Assembly (NCBI GenBank): GCA_902826615.1
Contig: CADEFN010000005.1
Location: 310,001-374,000 of the forward strand
Reading direction: 5' to 3'
Origin: an uncultured Gemmatimonadota bacterium
Lineage (GTDB): Bacteria > Gemmatimonadota > Gemmatimonadetes > Gemmatimonadales > Gemmatimonadaceae
DNA: 64,000 nt
A program made the translations under genes and the position numbers. Shown here piece after piece: positions 18,361 through 41,253 of the stretch (position 1 is its first letter; the number at the start of each line of letters is the position of its first letter). The notes below the pieces were generated by a model. It was not told the origin of the DNA and searched no databases. It was given only the letters and a program-made list of their open reading frames with translations.

Positions 18361-19292
18361 CGCGCGCTCCGGGTGAGCGTCCAGCGCGTGCCGTCCCTGG
18401 AGACACGTGCCCCGAACGTGAGCGCGATCCCCTCGATGATCTCTGCGGCACCAGCCTGATGTGCGTACCGCGCCGTGAGACGGAGCGAGCGGAGGGAGTC
18501 GTCAACCTCCACCACCACCCCGAACCAGCGCTCGAGGTCTGCAGCCACTGCTGAAACCGCAACATCGCGCCAGACGAAGTCGCCTCGCACCCAGGCAAGA
18601 CGTGCGTCGAAATCGGTGAGCGACGCGATGCGGCCGGTCTGGTCAATGCTCGCCCCCTGTCCGGCGACCAAACGATGGGGTGCCTGGGTGGAGTCCCGAG
18701 CGACGGTTGCCAGAGAGACCTCGCCCTCTTCGACCGTCACCGCCACATCGCCTTGGGTGTCACGCGCATCCACCGCAAAACGGGTGCCGATGTCCTCGAT
18801 CACGGCATGCCGGGCGTACACGCGGAATGGCGTCTCGGCATGCGCGACTTCGAACCACGCTTCCCCACTCAGACGCACATAACGATCGCGGCCGGGGCGG
18901 GCCCGCCACACCATACTCGAGCCGGGGGCAAGCCGGACCCTGGACCCGTCAGCGAGTGCGACCGATGGCGAGGTGCCGGGGGCGGCGGCGAGCTGCTGCT
19001 CGCGATTCGACCATCCCTGCCAGCCGAACCAGAACACCAGGGATGCCGCGGCCGCCCCGAGGATCGGGCGGGCGGCGCTCCAGCGCCCGTGCGACAGTCG
19101 CGGCGCAAGCTGCTGCCAGCCTTGATGTGCATCAAACAACGCGTTCGCACGGTCGACCTGCGTTCGCAGCTGCGCCACACGAGCTGCGCGAGATGGGTCC
19201 TCGCGCAGCCATGCCTCGACCACGCGACGTTCGTCGGGCGACGCATCGCCGGCGAGGTACCGCTCAATGACAAGGTTGTCGGGTGAAGTCAC
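18357..19292 (-). CDS. FecR-type anti-sigma / sigma regulator
   Basis: 311 residues from a GTG at 19292, 59 bp after the sigma factor stop; no stronger start was seen. The N-terminal cytoplasmic part (VIERYLAGDASPDERRVVEAWL) is typical of FecR anti-sigma domains. One membrane helix follows (about 77-93), then a periplasmic FecR beta-domain (SVALADGSRVRLAPGSSM and later VEEGEVSLATV), and a C-terminal STN-like part (VAADLERWFGVVVEVDD). It should carry the signal from the TonB receptor's STN domain to the sigma factor. Confidence 0.9.
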   Translation of the reverse strand: MTSPDNLVIERYLAGDASPDERRVVEAWLREDPSRAARVAQLRTQVDRANALFDAHQGWQQLAPRLSHGRWSAARPILGAAAASLVFWFGWQGWSNREQQLAAAPGTSPSVALADGSRVRLAPGSSMVWRARPGRDRYVRLSGEAWFEVAHAETPFRVYARHAVIEDIGTRFAVDARDTQGDVAVTVEEGEVSLATVARDSTQAPHRLVAGQGASIDQTGRIASLTDFDARLAWVRGDFVWRDVAVSAVAADLERWFGVVVEVDDSLRSLRLTARYAHQAGAAEIIEGIALTFGARVSRDGTRWTLTRSAR

Positions 19293-19351: not shown

Positions 19352-19915
19352 TCAGCCGATCGCCGCCCGGAGCGCCGCCATTCCCCTGCCGAGGAGTTTC
19401 TCGACCCCTTTTTCGGTGATCTCCATGACCTCGGCCACCTCGGCGTACGAGAGCCCTTCCTTCCACCGAAGATGCATGGCCATGCGGCAACGCTCAGGTA
19501 GGGCGTCGAGCACACGCTGCAACGCGTCTTCGGCCTCGAGCCGGATGACTTTCACGTCGGCCGGTTCGGGGGAAGCCGGAAGGGAGTGCGCCTGGTCGGG
19601 GTCGGCGTTGACACCATCCTGCCAGCTGTCCTCGACGCGGTGACGCCGTCTGGCGTTGAGGGCCCGATTGCGTGCGCATCGGAAGAGATACGCGCGGAGG
19701 CCGGGGGCCGTGACCTTCCATTTGGCGCGATCGATCCAGAGATCGAGAAAGAGCTGCTGGGTGAGGTCCGCGGCCTCGGCTGGATCGCGAACGTATCGCG
19801 TGATATAGGCGCAGAGGCGTGGCGCCATCTCGCGGTAAAGCGACTCGTACGCGGTGCTGTCGCCACGCGCGATGCGCTGCAAGAGGTCGGCAGCCAATGG
19901 CGTGGTCGAGCTCAT
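19352..19915 (-). CDS. FecI-type ECF sigma factor
   Basis: 187 residues from the ATG at 19915. Region 2 includes YESLYREMAPRLCAYITRYV and DLTQQLFLDLWIDR; region 4 includes RCRMAMHLRWKEGLSYAEVA and GVEKLLGRGM, matching FecI-like sigma factors (the Bacteroidota-style 'sigma-70 family, Bact' subgroup is also possible). It heads the sigma/FecR/receptor/DUF4249 operon. No Shine-Dalgarno is visible, and the start codon lies at the edge of a perfect 7-bp inverted repeat. Confidence 0.92.
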   Translation of the reverse strand: MSSTTPLAADLLQRIARGDSTAYESLYREMAPRLCAYITRYVRDPAEAADLTQQLFLDLWIDRAKWKVTAPGLRAYLFRCARNRALNARRRHRVEDSWQDGVNADPDQAHSLPASPEPADVKVIRLEAEDALQRVLDALPERCRMAMHLRWKEGLSYAEVAEVMEITEKGVEKLLGRGMAALRAAIG

Positions 19916-19936
19916 CGGCCGAGTGTAGTGGCCGAT
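19914..19936 (-). promoter_or_regulatory. Inverted repeat overlapping the FecI start codon
   Basis: ATCGGCC (19914-19920) and GGCCGAT (19930-19936) are perfect inverted copies around a 9-nt spacer. In the minus-strand mRNA the second arm ends in the first two bases of the AUG, so a hairpin could block translation; it could equally be a DNA operator. Confidence 0.45.
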
Positions 19937-20166
19937 TCCCGCGAGGAGCAAGAGAGCAGGGACGGGCGGTCGATCACGGACGACCAGCGACCGAGACCAA
20001 GCGCCCGTGACGCCAGAGAAGTTGTTCGCACGGCGCTCCGGACTTTCGGTGGCCCGCAGCGAGCTGATATCGCGGCCCTTCAGCCACCTCCGCCTGGAAT
20101 AGTGTCAGCGGGGTAGACGCGAGGCGGGCCCCGTGGCAAGATCTTCCGGAACCCTCGACCTCCGAC

Positions 20167-35687: not shown

Positions 35688-36482
35688 TCAGGCCGGACGG
35701 TCGAGGTACGGCTTCAGCTCGGCGCGATACCGGCGGCTGACGACGATGTGGGCGCCACTGTGCATCACTAGTGTGAGGTGACCACTTGCATCGGGAAATG
35801 CCAGGGAGATCTGTGACAGATTGACGATCGCTGACCGGTGTACCTGGACGAACGCGTCAGCAGAGAGCCGTCGCTTGAGGGATGCCAGCGTACCCCGCAT
35901 TCGCAGGACATCGGTGGCGCGGTGAAGCACCAGAAACTCGCCATCCACCTCGAACCACTCGACCGTGCCGGCGCGGATGATCTGGATGCGGCCTTGATGG
36001 CGCACCGTAATCCGGTCCTCCGGGCGCGTCCGCTCAGCAGGCGCTGGCGCCGCTGGCGGCCAGCTGCGGAGCATGGCACGCAGTCGTTCCTCGAAGGCGA
36101 TCATGGTGTTGCCTCGCACGAGCTCACTGGCGCGGTGCAAGGCGTCGGCAAAGCGCTCGTCGGAGAAGGGCTTGAGGAGATAGTCGATCGCGTGCGCCTC
36201 AAAGGCATCGAGCGCATAACGATCGAATGCTGTCACAAAGACGACGAGCGGGCGCCGGTTGTCCGGGAGCTGCCGGACAACCTCGAGGCCACTGAGCCCC
36301 GGCATCTGGACGTCGAGAAAGGCAATGTCGGGATGGTGCTCGGCGATCGCGGAGATGGTTTCGGGACCCGTGCTGCAACTGGCAACGAGGACCGTGGTGT
36401 GGTGCTGGGCGAGAATGTCCGCGAGCCGTTCTCGCGCGGGGGCTTCGTCGTCGGCGATGAGAACGCGAAGGGGGGCCGTCAC
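35688..36482 (-). CDS. LytTR-family response regulator
   Basis: 264 residues. Receiver domain (about 5-118): acidic pair IADDEAP, phospho-acceptor Asp57 in FLDVQMPG, and conserved VTAF and LLKPF. The LytTR DNA-binding domain occupies about 157-262 (VEWFEVDGEFLVLHRATDVL, FVQVHRSAIVNL). Gene starts inside the stop of the histidine kinase (ATGA), so the two form a LytS/LytR-like (AlgR-type) two-component pair. The linker contains a Pro/Ala stretch. Confidence 0.95.
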   Translation of the reverse strand: MTAPLRVLIADDEAPARERLADILAQHHTTVLVASCSTGPETISAIAEHHPDIAFLDVQMPGLSGLEVVRQLPDNRRPLVVFVTAFDRYALDAFEAHAIDYLLKPFSDERFADALHRASELVRGNTMIAFEERLRAMLRSWPPAAPAPAERTRPEDRITVRHQGRIQIIRAGTVEWFEVDGEFLVLHRATDVLRMRGTLASLKRRLSADAFVQVHRSAIVNLSQISLAFPDASGHLTLVMHSGAHIVVSRRYRAELKPYLDRPA

Positions 36483-37579
36483 GCGAGCGCCTCGCGCCGA
36501 AAGGGCACGACGACCTCGATGGCAAAGCCACCCAGTAGCGAGGGGATCACCTGGAGCGCGGCGCGTGACCCATACATCGTGTGCAGCCGACGCCGGGTAT
36601 TCCCGATCCCGACCCGTTCCGTGGCCGGGTCCAGACGACCACCAGCACCATCGTCGTCAACGCTGACATGCAGCTCGCCGTCGTGCCGGCGCACGCGGAC
36701 GACCACGTGACCAGATTCCGCTCGCGGTGCGATGCCGTGCTGGACCGCATTTTCCACCAACGGCTGCAGCACAAAGGTTGGGAGTATCGCATCCTTGAGA
36801 TCCACGGGAATGTCGAGGTCGACGCGCAGCCGGGGGCCGAAGCGCGTACGCTCGATCTCCACGTACGCCTCGAGCAACGACAACTCGCGGTCGAGGCGGG
36901 CCTCCTCGGATGGGGGGGCTCGCAGCGACGAGCGAAGAAGCTCGCCCAGATTGCCTAACAAGCGCCGGGCCTGCCGCGGATCGCGTTCCAGCACCGCCGA
37001 GACGGTGTTGAGGGTGTTGAAGAGGAAGTGGGGATGGAGTTGCGAACGCAGGGCCTGGAGCGTGACGGCATTCAGATCCGCTTCTCGCCGGCGGAAGGCC
37101 TCATAGTTGGCGAAGGCGTGATAGACGCCGACCACCGCCCAGTAGAGCACAAACCCCAGAATGAACCACTCACGAAATCCACGCCAGAACCATCGCTCTA
37201 CGGATGGATCGGTCATGGGGTAGGGGTTGAACGCCTGGTACCAGAGGAGCTTGAAGGCCACAAACAGGGTGGCGATGACCGCCGCGGCCACGAGATGCAC
37301 CGTGAGCCCGGTTTTCGGGTATCGGCGCTCGAGCGGTGCCCGTCGGGCGAGCATGACAATGGCGATAGAGGCCGCCAGCCAGTAGGCCCACACCGGGTAC
37401 TCGAGCCTGACGAGCGGCCACAGGGGCGGCGGCTCACCAAGCATGGCCCGCGCAACCCAGATTTGGGCCGTCGAGAAGGTGGCCACGACAAACCACACCC
37501 CGAGCAGGATGGCCCATCTCAGTCGGGGCGACGCCTCAGGTGCCGCGGGCAGTGACGAAGGAGTGCTGGACGAATCCAC
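36479..37579 (-). CDS. LytS/YehU-type sensor histidine kinase
   Basis: 366 residues from a GTG at 37579; the frame stays open to a TTG at 37756, but that part is not hydrophobic or domain-like. Four membrane helices (about 23-41, 63-79, 93-113, 138-155) are followed by a His_kinase domain with SQLHPHFLFNTLN (His at about 182-184) and an HATPase_c domain (VLQPLVENAVQHG, then ERVGIGNTRRRL). Overlaps the LytTR regulator by 4 bp. Likely senses a small molecule or envelope state through the membrane segment. Confidence 0.92.
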   Translation of the reverse strand: MDSSSTPSSLPAAPEASPRLRWAILLGVWFVVATFSTAQIWVARAMLGEPPPLWPLVRLEYPVWAYWLAASIAIVMLARRAPLERRYPKTGLTVHLVAAAVIATLFVAFKLLWYQAFNPYPMTDPSVERWFWRGFREWFILGFVLYWAVVGVYHAFANYEAFRRREADLNAVTLQALRSQLHPHFLFNTLNTVSAVLERDPRQARRLLGNLGELLRSSLRAPPSEEARLDRELSLLEAYVEIERTRFGPRLRVDLDIPVDLKDAILPTFVLQPLVENAVQHGIAPRAESGHVVVRVRRHDGELHVSVDDDGAGGRLDPATERVGIGNTRRRLHTMYGSRAALQVIPSLLGGFAIEVVVPFRREALA

Positions 37580-37962
37580 AGCCGATGACAAGGTGATTGG
37601 GGCCCCGCGCTGACCGGCGGGTCTCCGTGAAAGCTCCAGCCATGCTGCACTGTTGGCAAACTGGAGACGCGACGCCTGGGACGAGTCGAGTGGTTTCTCC
37701 GTCGAGCGGTCAGCTAAAACCGCCCCGGCGTCGCACCGTCGGTTCGCGCGCTGCAAATGAGTTGTCTACCGACGATCGGTGCGAGGCGTTCTCACGCAAG
37801 TGTGTCGTAGCGCCTGTCACCGAGGGGGCGCGCCGGGTTGGTCCGCCGGATCTCCGACGAAAGTCGAAGGAGTAGAACACGCCTGCAGTCGCGATGCATG
37901 TGACCTTCCAGTCCCCGTCGTTGTTCTTTCCTGCAGAAGGCGTACAGCTGACAGGAGGAGTC
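37580..37962. other. Divergent intergenic region, kinase / lipoprotein
   Basis: 383 bp between the kinase start and the lipoprotein start. It holds a small palindrome, ACCGA-CGA-TCGGT (37768-37780), which could be an operator. No gene or clear promoter consensus was seen. If the kinase starts upstream at the TTG, the region is shorter. Confidence 0.4.
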
Positions 37963-38475
37963 ATGAACAGGAAGACACACAAGGCACTGGCGTACACACG
38001 CATGACCATGACCAGCGTATCGACGGTACTCGCACTGGCATGTGGCAACCCGGAGGAACCGGTGGGCAAGGATGTACTCGCCGGTTTGTCCGCCACCGCG
38101 GCGCGCGACAGTTCCGGGGGAGCGCTGCCGCCTGGGGCGGTATCCACAGCACCGGGCAGCATCTCGGGGACCGTACGAGGGCCTGGGGGAACCGGCTCGG
38201 ACACGCTCGCGACGTCGACACGGCTCAGCGGAGTGAAGGTGGCGGCGTTCAAGGTGCTTGGAGGAACAGCAGTAGCGCCGGATCTGTCGGCGCAGGTGGT
38301 GGCGACCACAACAGACACCTTCGGCAAGTTCACACTGCCCGAGGTGCCCGCTGCAGACTACGTCGTCACATTCACACCACCGGAGGGCAGCGCCTACACC
38401 GGGGTCTGGGTGACGTCGCGTATCGATGCGGTGCGGGCGCTGCTTCCCTGGTGGGTGACCCTACCGAAGAAATGA
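37963..38475 (+). CDS. Carboxypeptidase-regulatory-like lipoprotein
   Basis: 170 residues, with AGGAGG 4 nt before the ATG. A hydrophobic segment ends LALAC|G (lipobox). The mature part has a Ser/Thr/Gly/Pro-rich linker and a CarboxypepD_reg-like Ig fold (PGSISGTVRGPGGTGSD, then TFGKFTLPEVPAADYVVTF). The sigma-factor GTG directly follows the stop, so it is the first gene of the sigma/anti-sigma/CBM48 operon. It may be a surface or periplasmic accessory protein; the exact role is unknown. Confidence 0.75.
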   Translation: MNRKTHKALAYTRMTMTSVSTVLALACGNPEEPVGKDVLAGLSATAARDSSGGALPPGAVSTAPGSISGTVRGPGGTGSDTLATSTRLSGVKVAAFKVLGGTAVAPDLSAQVVATTTDTFGKFTLPEVPAADYVVTFTPPEGSAYTGVWVTSRIDAVRALLPWWVTLPKK

Positions 38476-39081
38476 GTGACGGGGACGTCTGCTGAGCCCG
38501 GTCAACACGCGTTGCGCGGTGATGGTGGCGCACAGACGCCCGAGGACGACGATGTCCTGGTGCGCCGGGTGCAGGCTGGTGAGGTGTCGGCCTTCCGATC
38601 GCTGGTCGAGCGACACCACCCGGCCTGCACCCGGTACGCCCGCGCGATGCTGGGAAACTCCGCCGACGCCGCAGATGTGGTGCAGGAAACGTTCTGGCGT
38701 GCCTGGAATGCGCTGGGAACCTACACCGAACGGGGATCACTGGCGCGATGGTTGTTCACCATTCTGGCCAATCAATGCCGCAACGCGCTCGCGGCGAGAA
38801 CGCGGCGAGAGCGCCCTCTGGCGCCGCTGGAGAGCGCAGAACAGGTACCCGCGATGAACACCGCTCCGCTGGATGACTTCACCGAAATCGGTCACGTGGT
38901 GGCCGCGCTCTCGCCCCCGGAGCGTGAGGTCCTGCTGTTGCGCTTTGGCGAGGGTCTGGAATACTCGGAGATTGCCATCGTGACGGGAGCCAGTGTATCG
39001 GCCCTCAAGATGCGAGCCCGGCGTGCGATAGAGCGTCTGCGTCACGACCTGGGAAGACGCGCCGGAAGGGAGGGGCAATGA
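38476..39081 (+). CDS. ECF sigma factor (SigE/RpoE-like) of CBM48 operon
   Basis: 201 residues from a GTG at 38476, immediately after the preceding stop. A disordered N-terminus (about 1-25) precedes region 2 (AFRSLVERHHPACTRYARAM and DVVQETFWRAWNAL) and region 4 (LSPPEREVLLLRFGEGLEYSEIA). Its last four bases overlap the start of the membrane anti-sigma (ATGA at 39078). Confidence 0.92.
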   Translation: MTGTSAEPGQHALRGDGGAQTPEDDDVLVRRVQAGEVSAFRSLVERHHPACTRYARAMLGNSADAADVVQETFWRAWNALGTYTERGSLARWLFTILANQCRNALAARTRRERPLAPLESAEQVPAMNTAPLDDFTEIGHVVAALSPPEREVLLLRFGEGLEYSEIAIVTGASVSALKMRARRAIERLRHDLGRRAGREGQ

Positions 39082-39608
39082 TACCGCACGACGACCTCCC
39101 CGGAGCTGCGGAGCGCGAGCTGATGTCGCACCTGCACGCATGGTACATCAAACCGGTTGCGGCTGACGGTGCGGTGGATGCCATCATGGAGCGCGTCAGG
39201 GCAGCGCCAACCCGTCACCTGCCAGCGCCGCGAGTTGTGTCAGCGCGCCGCTGGTGGTGGATCACTGGCGCGGCCGCGGTCGCTGCGATCATGGTGCTGA
39301 CGACACGAGCCACAAGAACGCCGCGCCCTTTCCAGGCACCGTCCGTGGCGGTGCGACTGTCGGTGAACATCGCGCGCGCGGGAGTGGACGAGGTGCGCGT
39401 CGCGGGAGATTTCTCCGACTGGAAGCCGGTCCGCGCGCTCGATCGGGCGCGCGGGACAAACCAATGGACCGGTCTGCTCAATTTGCGGCCAGGGATGCAT
39501 CGATACGTACTGCTGGTGGATGGAGTGTGGCAGGCCAATCCCGGTGAACTGGTGGTGAGCGATGAATTCGGAGAAAAGAATGTCCTGGTGGTCGCGAGTC
39601 CTCCTTAG
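39078..39608 (+). CDS. Membrane anti-sigma factor with CBM48/E-set glycogen-binding-type domain
   Basis: 176 residues. Cytoplasmic N-terminus (about 1-58, no zinc HxxxCxxC motif), one membrane helix (about 59-76; WWWITGAAAVAAIMVL), and an outer part (about 88-174) that matches the E-set/AMPK-type glycogen-binding fold: VDEVRVAGDFSDW, then LNLRPGMHRYVLLVDGVWQ. The anti-sigma role is inferred from position after the sigma factor, and the domain could sense an alpha-glucan or other ligand. The next gene starts within its end. Also listed as a finding. Confidence 0.82.
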   Translation: MIPHDDLPGAAERELMSHLHAWYIKPVAADGAVDAIMERVRAAPTRHLPAPRVVSARRWWWITGAAAVAAIMVLTTRATRTPRPFQAPSVAVRLSVNIARAGVDEVRVAGDFSDWKPVRALDRARGTNQWTGLLNLRPGMHRYVLLVDGVWQANPGELVVSDEFGEKNVLVVASPP

Positions 39609-41253
39609 CGCTCTGGTCGCGACGATCACTCGGCCCGTGTCTGGTCAGGGGGTCCCCTCCTTTCGTCGCGAGCCACTCCAGGCTATCGTCGACAGCGCGG
39701 TGGTCGATGGGTTACCGGCGTCGCCGCTCCTCAATCGCATCAAGGAGGCGGAGGCTCGTGGTGTGAGCACCGAGCGGGCCGCTGAAGCGCTCCGCCGACA
39801 CGTGGTGCTGATGCGGCGTGCGCGCAGCGTGCTTCCGGGAGCCAGTGCGGACGAAATGGACGCCGGGGCCAACGCATTGCGCGCCGGTGCCGAAGAAGCA
39901 GCGCTTGGGGAAATACGCCGCGTGCGCGCGCCGGGGACCGCGACCGTGGCCCTGCTGGTCCTTGCCGATCTGGTGCGGCGCGGTGTGGGAAGCGGGGCAG
40001 CCGGCGACGCAATCACCGCGTTAGGCGACCAGCGTGGTGACCAGGTGTTGCTCGAGCTGCAGCGGGCCATTGGCGGCGACGCCAGCGCTGGCGCCAACGC
40101 CAGCGCTGCGCTGCAACGAGCCATCGATCGCTTGAGGCGGCCACCCCGTGAAGAGGACGCGCTGCTCTGCTGCCTGGCGGGGTCCAACGCGCTCTCCCTG
40201 GGGGTGCACCGCGCTGCCAGCGCGCCGGAGTATGATGGCGCAGCGATACAGGTGCAGGGGAGAGCGGGGCGAAGATGGGGTGCAACGTCGGCGCGTATTG
40301 CTGGTGATGTGGCCATGGGAACGAACACGTCTCCTCGGTGGCGTGGTGAGTTGGCAGCGTTCCGTGAAGTGGAGGTACTAGGCGGCCGGTTCGACGCCAG
40401 GGCAGCACTCGGCGCGCAGCGTCGATCCATTGGCGACGCGGCCTCGGGCGACACCGCGCGCGCTGGCAAGGACAGGACAGCGCTCGAGGGGACCCTCGAC
40501 TTTGGTGCCGGACGCCCACTCCCGGGTGGCGTTCGGGTCAGAGGGTCTGGCGGCGTCAGAATATGGCAGCGCTACCAATCGGGTGTGGTGCAGGTGGGTA
40601 CGCAGGTCGTCCCGAACTCGGATACTCTTGGGCGTGGGCCCGTCGAATTTCCGATCTTCGGTGAGCGCAGCGTGCGTGGCCGAGCGGTCACCGTGCTGGC
40701 TGGTGCTGAAGCGGCATGGAAGGGTAGTGCCATCGGGGTGATGTCGACGATGCGCGGGAACACCAGAAGCCTGCAAACCACTTTCGATCAGCGGCTGACT
40801 CCGGGTGTGTCGCTCGTTGCCCGACACACCGTGGACCCGGCTGCCTACGCATGGGAAGCAGGCGAGCCCGGGGCGGCGAGATGGAGCGTCGGGGTGCGGA
40901 TGTGGCGCACGAGCGCCGCCGCGCCAGCATCCTCGGCGCGCATCGCGTCTCGACTGACGGCCACAACCGTTGAAACCTCAGAGGGCCCGGCGATCGAGAT
41001 TGTCGTGGAGGCTGAGGGCGCTCGCACGGTGGAGGTTGATGGCGACCTTACCGCATGGATTCCGCACGCACTCAATGATGCCGGGGGGAGCCGATTTGTC
41101 GGGAGCTTTCCGGCCCGTCGGGGCCTCGTCCGCGCTCGCTATCGTGTTGACGGAGGGCCATGGCGCGCGCCGAGCGGGTTTCCGGTGTTGCGTGACGAGT
41201 TCGGTGGCGAGAGCGCGGTGTTGCTGCCCACTAGCGGCATGCCCTCAAGCTGA
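39580..41253 (+). CDS. Exported barrel-like protein with C-terminal CBM48/E-set domain
   Basis: 557 residues from the ATG at 39580, which has GGAG 5 nt before it; an ATG six codons upstream is possible. Both overlap the anti-sigma gene. Signal peptide ending PVSGQ, a helical N-terminal domain (about 20-190, Ala/Arg-rich), a middle with alternating beta strands that resembles an outer-membrane barrel, and a C-terminal E-set domain (about 465-550; ARTVEVDGDLTAWIP, LVRARYRVDGGPWRAP) related to that of the anti-sigma. The shared fold suggests that the anti-sigma and this surface protein recognise related ligands or each other. Confidence 0.75.
   Translation: MSWWSRVLLSALVATITRPVSGQGVPSFRREPLQAIVDSAVVDGLPASPLLNRIKEAEARGVSTERAAEALRRHVVLMRRARSVLPGASADEMDAGANALRAGAEEAALGEIRRVRAPGTATVALLVLADLVRRGVGSGAAGDAITALGDQRGDQVLLELQRAIGGDASAGANASAALQRAIDRLRRPPREEDALLCCLAGSNALSLGVHRAASAPEYDGAAIQVQGRAGRRWGATSARIAGDVAMGTNTSPRWRGELAAFREVEVLGGRFDARAALGAQRRSIGDAASGDTARAGKDRTALEGTLDFGAGRPLPGGVRVRGSGGVRIWQRYQSGVVQVGTQVVPNSDTLGRGPVEFPIFGERSVRGRAVTVLAGAEAAWKGSAIGVMSTMRGNTRSLQTTFDQRLTPGVSLVARHTVDPAAYAWEAGEPGAARWSVGVRMWRTSAAAPASSARIASRLTATTVETSEGPAIEIVVEAEGARTVEVDGDLTAWIPHALNDAGGSRFVGSFPARRGLVRARYRVDGGPWRAPSGFPVLRDEFGGESAVLLPTSGMPSS

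Follow-up and report, generated by a model that had tools for sequence, protein, structure and literature searches.

The operon and its products

The window analysed here is a 64-kb stretch of DNA from an uncultured Gemmatimonadota bacterium, and the subject is an operon in it for an extracytoplasmic function (ECF) sigma factor (P0002), a membrane anti-sigma factor (P0003) and an exported fusion protein (P0004), the last two bearing homologous CBM48-type domains; a lipoprotein-like protein (P0001) is encoded first. The original prediction described four overlapping or abutting genes, and all four open reading frames (ORFs) were confirmed where it had placed them, head to tail on the + strand. 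In positions of the window, the features are:

37899..37926, +: candidate promoter, TGTGAC-N16-TTGTTC, 36 bp 5' of the lipoprotein ATG; weak
37963..38475, +: P0001, encoded first in the transcription unit and outside the conserved core; exported and lipoprotein-like, with a CarboxypepD_reg-like domain
38476..39081, +: P0002, ECF sigma factor with regions 2 and 4 (profile matches); its GTG start abuts the P0001 stop
39078..39608, +: P0003, anti-sigma factor with a short cytoplasmic N-terminus, one membrane helix and an outer CBM48-type domain (profile and reading of the sequence)
39381..39590, +: CBM48/AMPK1_CBM-type domain of P0003, residues 102-171; it keeps the equivalents of W100 and W133 and has V in place of K126
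39562..41253, +: P0004, exported fusion of signal peptide, helical domain, outer-membrane-type beta-barrel, linker and CBM48-type domain (models, profiles)
39646..40164, +: helical domain (hel) of P0004, nine to ten helices; a separate gene in most relatives
40198..40902, +: P0004 beta-barrel, predicted at 13 strands and structurally closest to CymA and OmpG
40954..41235, +: C-terminal CBM48-type domain of P0004 (family profile, PDB profile matches, fold)

The P0002 stop and P0003 start share an ATGA, and P0003 and P0004 overlap by 47 bp, or by 29 bp if P0004 begins at an alternative ATG at 39580, which gives a better signal peptide. Since the gene junctions abut or overlap, including the sigma/anti-sigma ATGA, translational coupling is likely.

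P0002 is an ECF sigma factor, as proposed: it matched the ECF profile TIGR02937 at E 7e-28 (97 bits, cut-off 43), and sigma-70 regions 2 and 4 scored above the curated cut-offs (PF04542, 65 bits; PF08281, 45 bits). P0003 has a single predicted membrane helix, a hydrophobic segment at about residues 58-76 as read from its sequence, and its proposed glycogen-binding-type outer domain was borne out by PF16561 (AMPK1_CBM; 45 bits, cut-off 26.8), the sole match above noise in the Pfam search. Among P0003 relatives, 17 of 43 matched an NCBIfam anti-sigma model at E ≤ 0.01 (best E 6e-7). The FecR domain (PF04773) is absent from P0003 in the Pfam search, while five FecR matches occur elsewhere in the same genome; nor did the RsgI N-terminal domain match P0003, and the sigma factor is of the ECF rather than the SigI type. 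Elsewhere in the window, a FecR-domain anti-sigma factor (18717-18986, - strand) stands beside a sigma-like ORF (about 19355-20100, - strand), forming a classical FecI/FecR-type pair.

CBM48-type domains and the helical and barrel parts of P0004

The same kind of domain had been proposed at the end of P0004, and this also stood up, on different evidence from that for P0003. Against PF16561 alone the match was weak (14.5 bits, E 0.19, under the curated cut-off); the assignment as CBM48-type follows from the family profile (69 bits), the PDB profile matches and the fold rather than from the Pfam score. The domain, an E-set, was modelled with a mean predicted local distance difference test (pLDDT) score of ~90, and AMPK-beta carbohydrate-binding chains were among its best Foldseek matches, with template modelling (TM) scores of 0.70-0.75 on the target for chains of 4yee. 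AMPK1_CBM matched all 43 anti-sigma factors scanned and 27 of 34 barrel proteins (E ≤ 0.01 in both), and CBM_48 matched 42 of the anti-sigma factors. Profiles built from the two E-set groups each retrieved AMPK-beta chains from the PDB, at 4e-13 for the anti-sigma group and 6e-5 for the barrel group.

Conservation of ligand residues was mixed in both groups. With residues numbered after rat AMPK beta-1, the W100 equivalent was present in 67/67 anti-sigma factors and 85/85 barrel proteins, and that of W133 in 53/67 and 78/85; P0003 and P0004 keep both. K126 is replaced in both groups, mostly by A, Q or V in the anti-sigma factors and by N or A in the barrel proteins. N150 is kept in P0003 and in 40 of 67 anti-sigma factors, and is lost from P0004 and most barrel proteins, where V mainly takes its place. 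In AMPK both tryptophans are required for binding glycogen and for inhibition of the enzyme by it, and with the W100G/W133A exchange neither glycogen nor beta-cyclodextrin has its effect any longer (PMC2642990); the plant protein AKINbeta2, whose domain has both tryptophans and lacks K126 and N150, still binds starch (PMC4032982). Glycan binding by the domains described here is thus plausible as a prediction from sequence, because both tryptophans are kept and a domain without the K and N residues binds starch. In a clade of paralogues that includes the second copy in this genome, W133 is gone from both partners. This paired loss was rejected as evidence of contact, since all seven double losses (7/7) fall in one clade and so count as one event. 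Two anti-sigma factors of the family alignment weakly matched the NCBIfam model for a type IX secretion plug protein (best E 0.0035), which hints at a possible further use of the CBM48-type fold as an envelope protein-binding module.

P0004 is a fusion of a new all-helical domain, a CymA/OmpG-like barrel and the CBM48-type domain. The exported barrel and its terminal domain had been foreseen, but the N-terminal hel domain, separately encoded elsewhere, had been missed: in relatives hel is usually an exported protein in its own right, and the barrel protein that comes next, likewise separate, ends in the CBM48-type domain. P0004 had no Pfam match at E ≤ 1, and neither a TonB-dependent receptor nor a plug or STN domain was found in it. 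Because a joint alignment of hel and barrel misplaced the barrels, the two halves were modelled apart. The hel domain was predicted, with high confidence, as nine to ten helices (pLDDT 94); it matched no family in the Pfam search, and no PDB match was better than E 0.04, so that neither search yielded a usable assignment. The remainder was modelled as a 13-strand barrel (mean pLDDT 71) followed by the well-predicted E-set. The barrel's best structural fits were CymA, a cyclodextrin porin, and OmpG (Z 17-20) at 6-9% identity, so the 'barrel-like' description held at the level of fold, with no sequence relation shown. In another locus (L053:4220-6487, - strand), hel and barrel form one 756-aa ORF with an internal signal-peptide-like stretch. 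We rejected this fusion as independent Rosetta-stone evidence, as the internal stretch points to a possible recent deletion or assembly error.

Conservation and promoters across Gemmatimonadota

Conservation was followed through two independent sets of loci, one of 80 loci within the order chosen by the E-set domain and one of 66 loci chosen by hel from 84,980 species genomes. The sigma gene lies directly 5' of the E-set anti-sigma gene in 67 of the 80 loci; the others include loci centred on the barrel copy of the domain, loci cut by contig ends, and stop-to-stop ORFs that overlap beyond the rule applied. Next in line after these 67 pairs are hel in 63 and an E-set barrel in 51. In the hel set, every locus with enough upstream DNA carries a sigma gene and then an E-set anti-sigma gene (55/66 by a strict automatic count, which passes over truncated contigs and cases where ORFs overlap). 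Overall, 185 of 298 Gemmatimonadota genomes, and 79 of 119 genera, have hel, and the barrel gene comes next in between about half and three quarters of loci. The constant core is thus the sigma factor, the CBM48 anti-sigma factor and hel, with the barrel as a frequent fourth part. The gene order expected in relatives recurs to this extent; the lipoprotein falls outside that core.

The genome under study itself holds another operon built in this way (G000:C1, about 1177738-1181000; L035 5740-8920), in which hel and barrel are separate genes and GTTGAC-N16-GGGTCT stands 5' of the sigma gene. This second copy and the recurrence across the phylum show that the gene order is not due to chance. A single pattern scan, the sole basis for the range beyond the phylum, gave Gemmatimonadota and two contigs labelled Candidatus Eisenbacteria. 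The operons on the latter (L132, L136) are complete, reflecting phylum-to-phylum transfer or mis-binning.

Many loci share a motif 5' of the sigma gene, TGTGAC-N16/17-GGGT, with A or C as the usual next base. With a spacing of N15-17, 43 of 76 non-redundant regions 5' of sigma genes had at least nine of its ten bases, as against 3.8 in shuffles, and 24 of 76 had all ten, as against 0.2. Exact copies followed by A, C or T numbered 66 in 1.67 Mb of loci, six times the 11 in shuffled sequence. The canonical ECF -35 element GGAAC was considered and set aside as weaker than TGTGAC (23 versus 11 in shuffles). In the window, the candidate promoter has the family consensus at -35, and its -10 fits only a variant, [ACT]TGTT[GC], of the nearest-related operons.

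In about 14 loci the motif occurs again 20-50 bp away, pointing in the opposite direction, and most of the genes divergent from sigma there encode lipoproteins bearing DUF4382 and CarboxypepD_reg domains; elsewhere DUF4382 lipoproteins lie downstream on the same strand. Individual cases of divergent DUF4382 lipoproteins behind the second promoter copy are L084, L127, L133, L138, L141, L145 and L147, most of them with CarboxypepD_reg. Two divergent genes with the same promoter (L095:3757-5466 and L110:4065-5573, both - strand) encode outer-membrane-protein-like products, FadL/PorV-like by eye and with no Pfam match. At L078:8625, L080:2424, L120:7766 and L129:2424 (all + strand) the motif stands just 5' of an additional hel gene, located downstream of the barrel. 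Genome-wide, motif counts were near those of a reversed-pattern control in the genomes tested, and no general regulon was visible. The regulon of the sigma factor is therefore probably small and local.

P0001 has a non-canonical lipobox (...LALAC) and matched PF13620 (CarboxypepD_reg) at E 8e-4, under the cut-off; its match to the corresponding domain of the divergent lipoproteins of relatives (E 2e-4) is weak and confined to the CarboxypepD_reg-like part. We rejected P0001 as a core component, as no clear counterpart was seen among the first 80 loci. Lipoproteins with CarboxypepD_reg are recurrent neighbours of relatives' operons, a frequent kind rather than a constant part. Divergent from the operon in the window (35688-37756, - strand) are genes read from the sequence as a LytS-like sensor kinase and a LytTR-like response regulator.

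A proposed outer-membrane-to-sigma switch

Reading the sigma factor, anti-sigma factor and partner as one unit is well supported. The proposal of a sigma/anti-sigma switch whose anti-sigma factor and outer-membrane partner bear homologous CBM48-type domains was upheld by profiles, conservation and co-occurrence. Three findings had been named in advance as fatal to it, and each was looked for: the domains do score as CBM48-like, relatives do not carry unrelated domains at these positions, and the genes do co-occur elsewhere. We put the probability at roughly one half that the module is an autoregulated switch reporting the state of an outer-membrane barrel. P0003 would hold P0002 at the inner membrane, and its periplasmic CBM48-type domain would meet the periplasmic parts of P0004, namely hel and the CBM48-type domain after the barrel. 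If a ligand, probably a carbohydrate, reached the barrel, or if the barrel were lost or misassembled, this contact would change, whereupon P0003 would be cleaved or would release P0002 to transcribe its own operon and, in relatives, the divergent lipoprotein gene. In this scheme we infer which domains touch, the signal, the proteolysis and the assignment of the promoter to P0002-type sigma factors. Intramembrane cleavage is assumed from known systems; a candidate site-2 protease is present (PF02163, E 6e-56).

Distance-matrix partial correlations were 0.45 between hel and the anti-sigma E-set, 0.39 between hel and the barrel E-set, and 0.15 between the two E-sets. As hel correlates with both E-sets and forms one chain with the barrel in P0004, these sequence comparisons favour, at low certainty, a bridge from the anti-sigma E-set through hel to the barrel over direct contact between E-sets.

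Several results weigh against the barrel-reporting switch. The partial correlations are no more than suggestive: the sequences are related, which inflates such values and keeps the certainty of the bridge low, and the domains compared differ in length. The P0003 N-terminus matched no family in the Pfam search, and P0003 itself falls far below the cut-off of the NCBIfam anti-sigma model. The P0004 barrel is unalignable by sequence with the barrels of relatives, so the likeness rests on position, length and fold. The promoter match of the window operon is weak, and the variant -10 pattern is so common genome-wide that the site is no evidence on its own. Finally, in one clade the operon ends after hel and is followed by a convergent gene (argJ by reading), so the barrel is perhaps not the input in every case.

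The original prediction was a switch sensing a surface alpha-glucan or other ligand, in which the exported protein and the anti-sigma factor would share recognition. A sensor of alpha-glucan or a similar glycan, in which the anti-sigma CBM48-type domain binds an oligosaccharide entering through the barrel and the barrel domain binds the same ligand, would fit the tryptophans largely kept in both groups, the AMPK and AKINbeta2 precedents, and CymA as the closest barrel fit, although a common fold is no proof of substrate; RsgI anti-sigma factors, moreover, bear carbohydrate-binding modules (PMC4711584). We nevertheless think it rather unlikely, and the alpha-glucan ligand as proposed was not sustained: K126 is replaced in both groups, N150 has mainly given way to V in the barrels, W133 is missing from both partners in the clade of the second own-genome copy, and no recurrent neighbour was recognised as a glucan-metabolism gene (read from sequence, with no family search). 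The mostly lost ligand residues beyond the two tryptophans would suit a monitor of envelope assembly, in which the CBM48-type folds are protein-protein modules and the signal is unassembled barrel or hel, or loss of the barrel, in the manner of RseA/DegS and with no sugar involved. The recognised regulated genes in relatives are indeed outer-membrane or lipoprotein genes, and hel is constant even where no barrel gene is adjacent. A purely structural role, however, explains less well why W133 is kept in most of both groups, and the motif counts near control levels in the genomes tested do not suggest a general envelope-stress regulon; we regard such a monitor as improbable.

The barrel might instead be only an output of the sigma factor. 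In that case hel, or some other periplasmic cue, would act on the anti-sigma factor, and the resemblance of the two CBM48-type domains would date from an old duplication with no present contact. Operons lacking a barrel, the full separation of the two E-set groups in the tree, and the weak direct correlation between them are consistent with this. The correlation of the barrel E-set with hel, the fusion of hel and barrel in P0004, and the E-set closing the barrel protein in aligned relatives are harder to reconcile with it, and it too seems unlikely to us.

Signalling from the outer membrane to a sigma factor is known mostly from TonB-dependent uptake systems, e.g., for iron. Among the open-licence papers searched, none described an anti-sigma factor with a CBM48 or AMPK1_CBM domain. 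It is possible, though we hold the view tentatively, that the module represents independently evolved signalling of this kind across Gemmatimonadota, with CBM48-type domains on the anti-sigma factor and a porin-like barrel, bridged by hel, in the role of STN. If so, there is a second design, with a porin-like barrel, and the logic of the same domain on both membranes and an ECF sigma factor inside arose more than once. The new domain hel, found in most Gemmatimonadota genera sampled, would gain a function, and a defined promoter would be available for testing the module.

The AMPK beta-subunit glycogen-binding domain (CBM48) shares fold, profile, the two ligand-stacking tryptophan positions and regulatory use with the domains described here, which differ in being periplasmic, on an anti-sigma factor or a barrel, in having lost K126, and in that glycan binding is putative. 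The monomeric porins OmpG and CymA resemble the predicted barrel fold (Z 17-20); they are 14-stranded, 13 strands were predicted here in a model of mean pLDDT 71, and P0004 adds an N-terminal helical domain and a C-terminal CBM48-type domain. The RsgI/SigI biomass sensors of Clostridium thermocellum likewise have a carbohydrate-binding-type module as the anti-sigma outer domain, but they are Gram-positive, with a SigI-type sigma factor, the RsgI N-terminus, CBM3, PA14 or GH10 rather than CBM48, and no outer-membrane partner. FecA/FecR/FecI and the related PupB/PupR/PupI and FoxA/FoxR/FoxI combine an ECF sigma factor, a single-span anti-sigma factor and an outer-membrane barrel in one cluster, as here. 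In PupR and FoxR the terminal STN subdomain is homologous to the outer-membrane partner's signalling domain, and that pair touches (PMC7186176, PMC11637429). Homologous periplasmic domains on anti-sigma factor and barrel protein are thus common to both, STN there and CBM48-type here; the present system differs in that no FecR, TonB-dependent receptor, plug or STN was found in it, in its small OmpG/CymA-like barrel, and in its extra helical partner. By analogy, its logic is most likely that of FecA/FecR, built from different parts.

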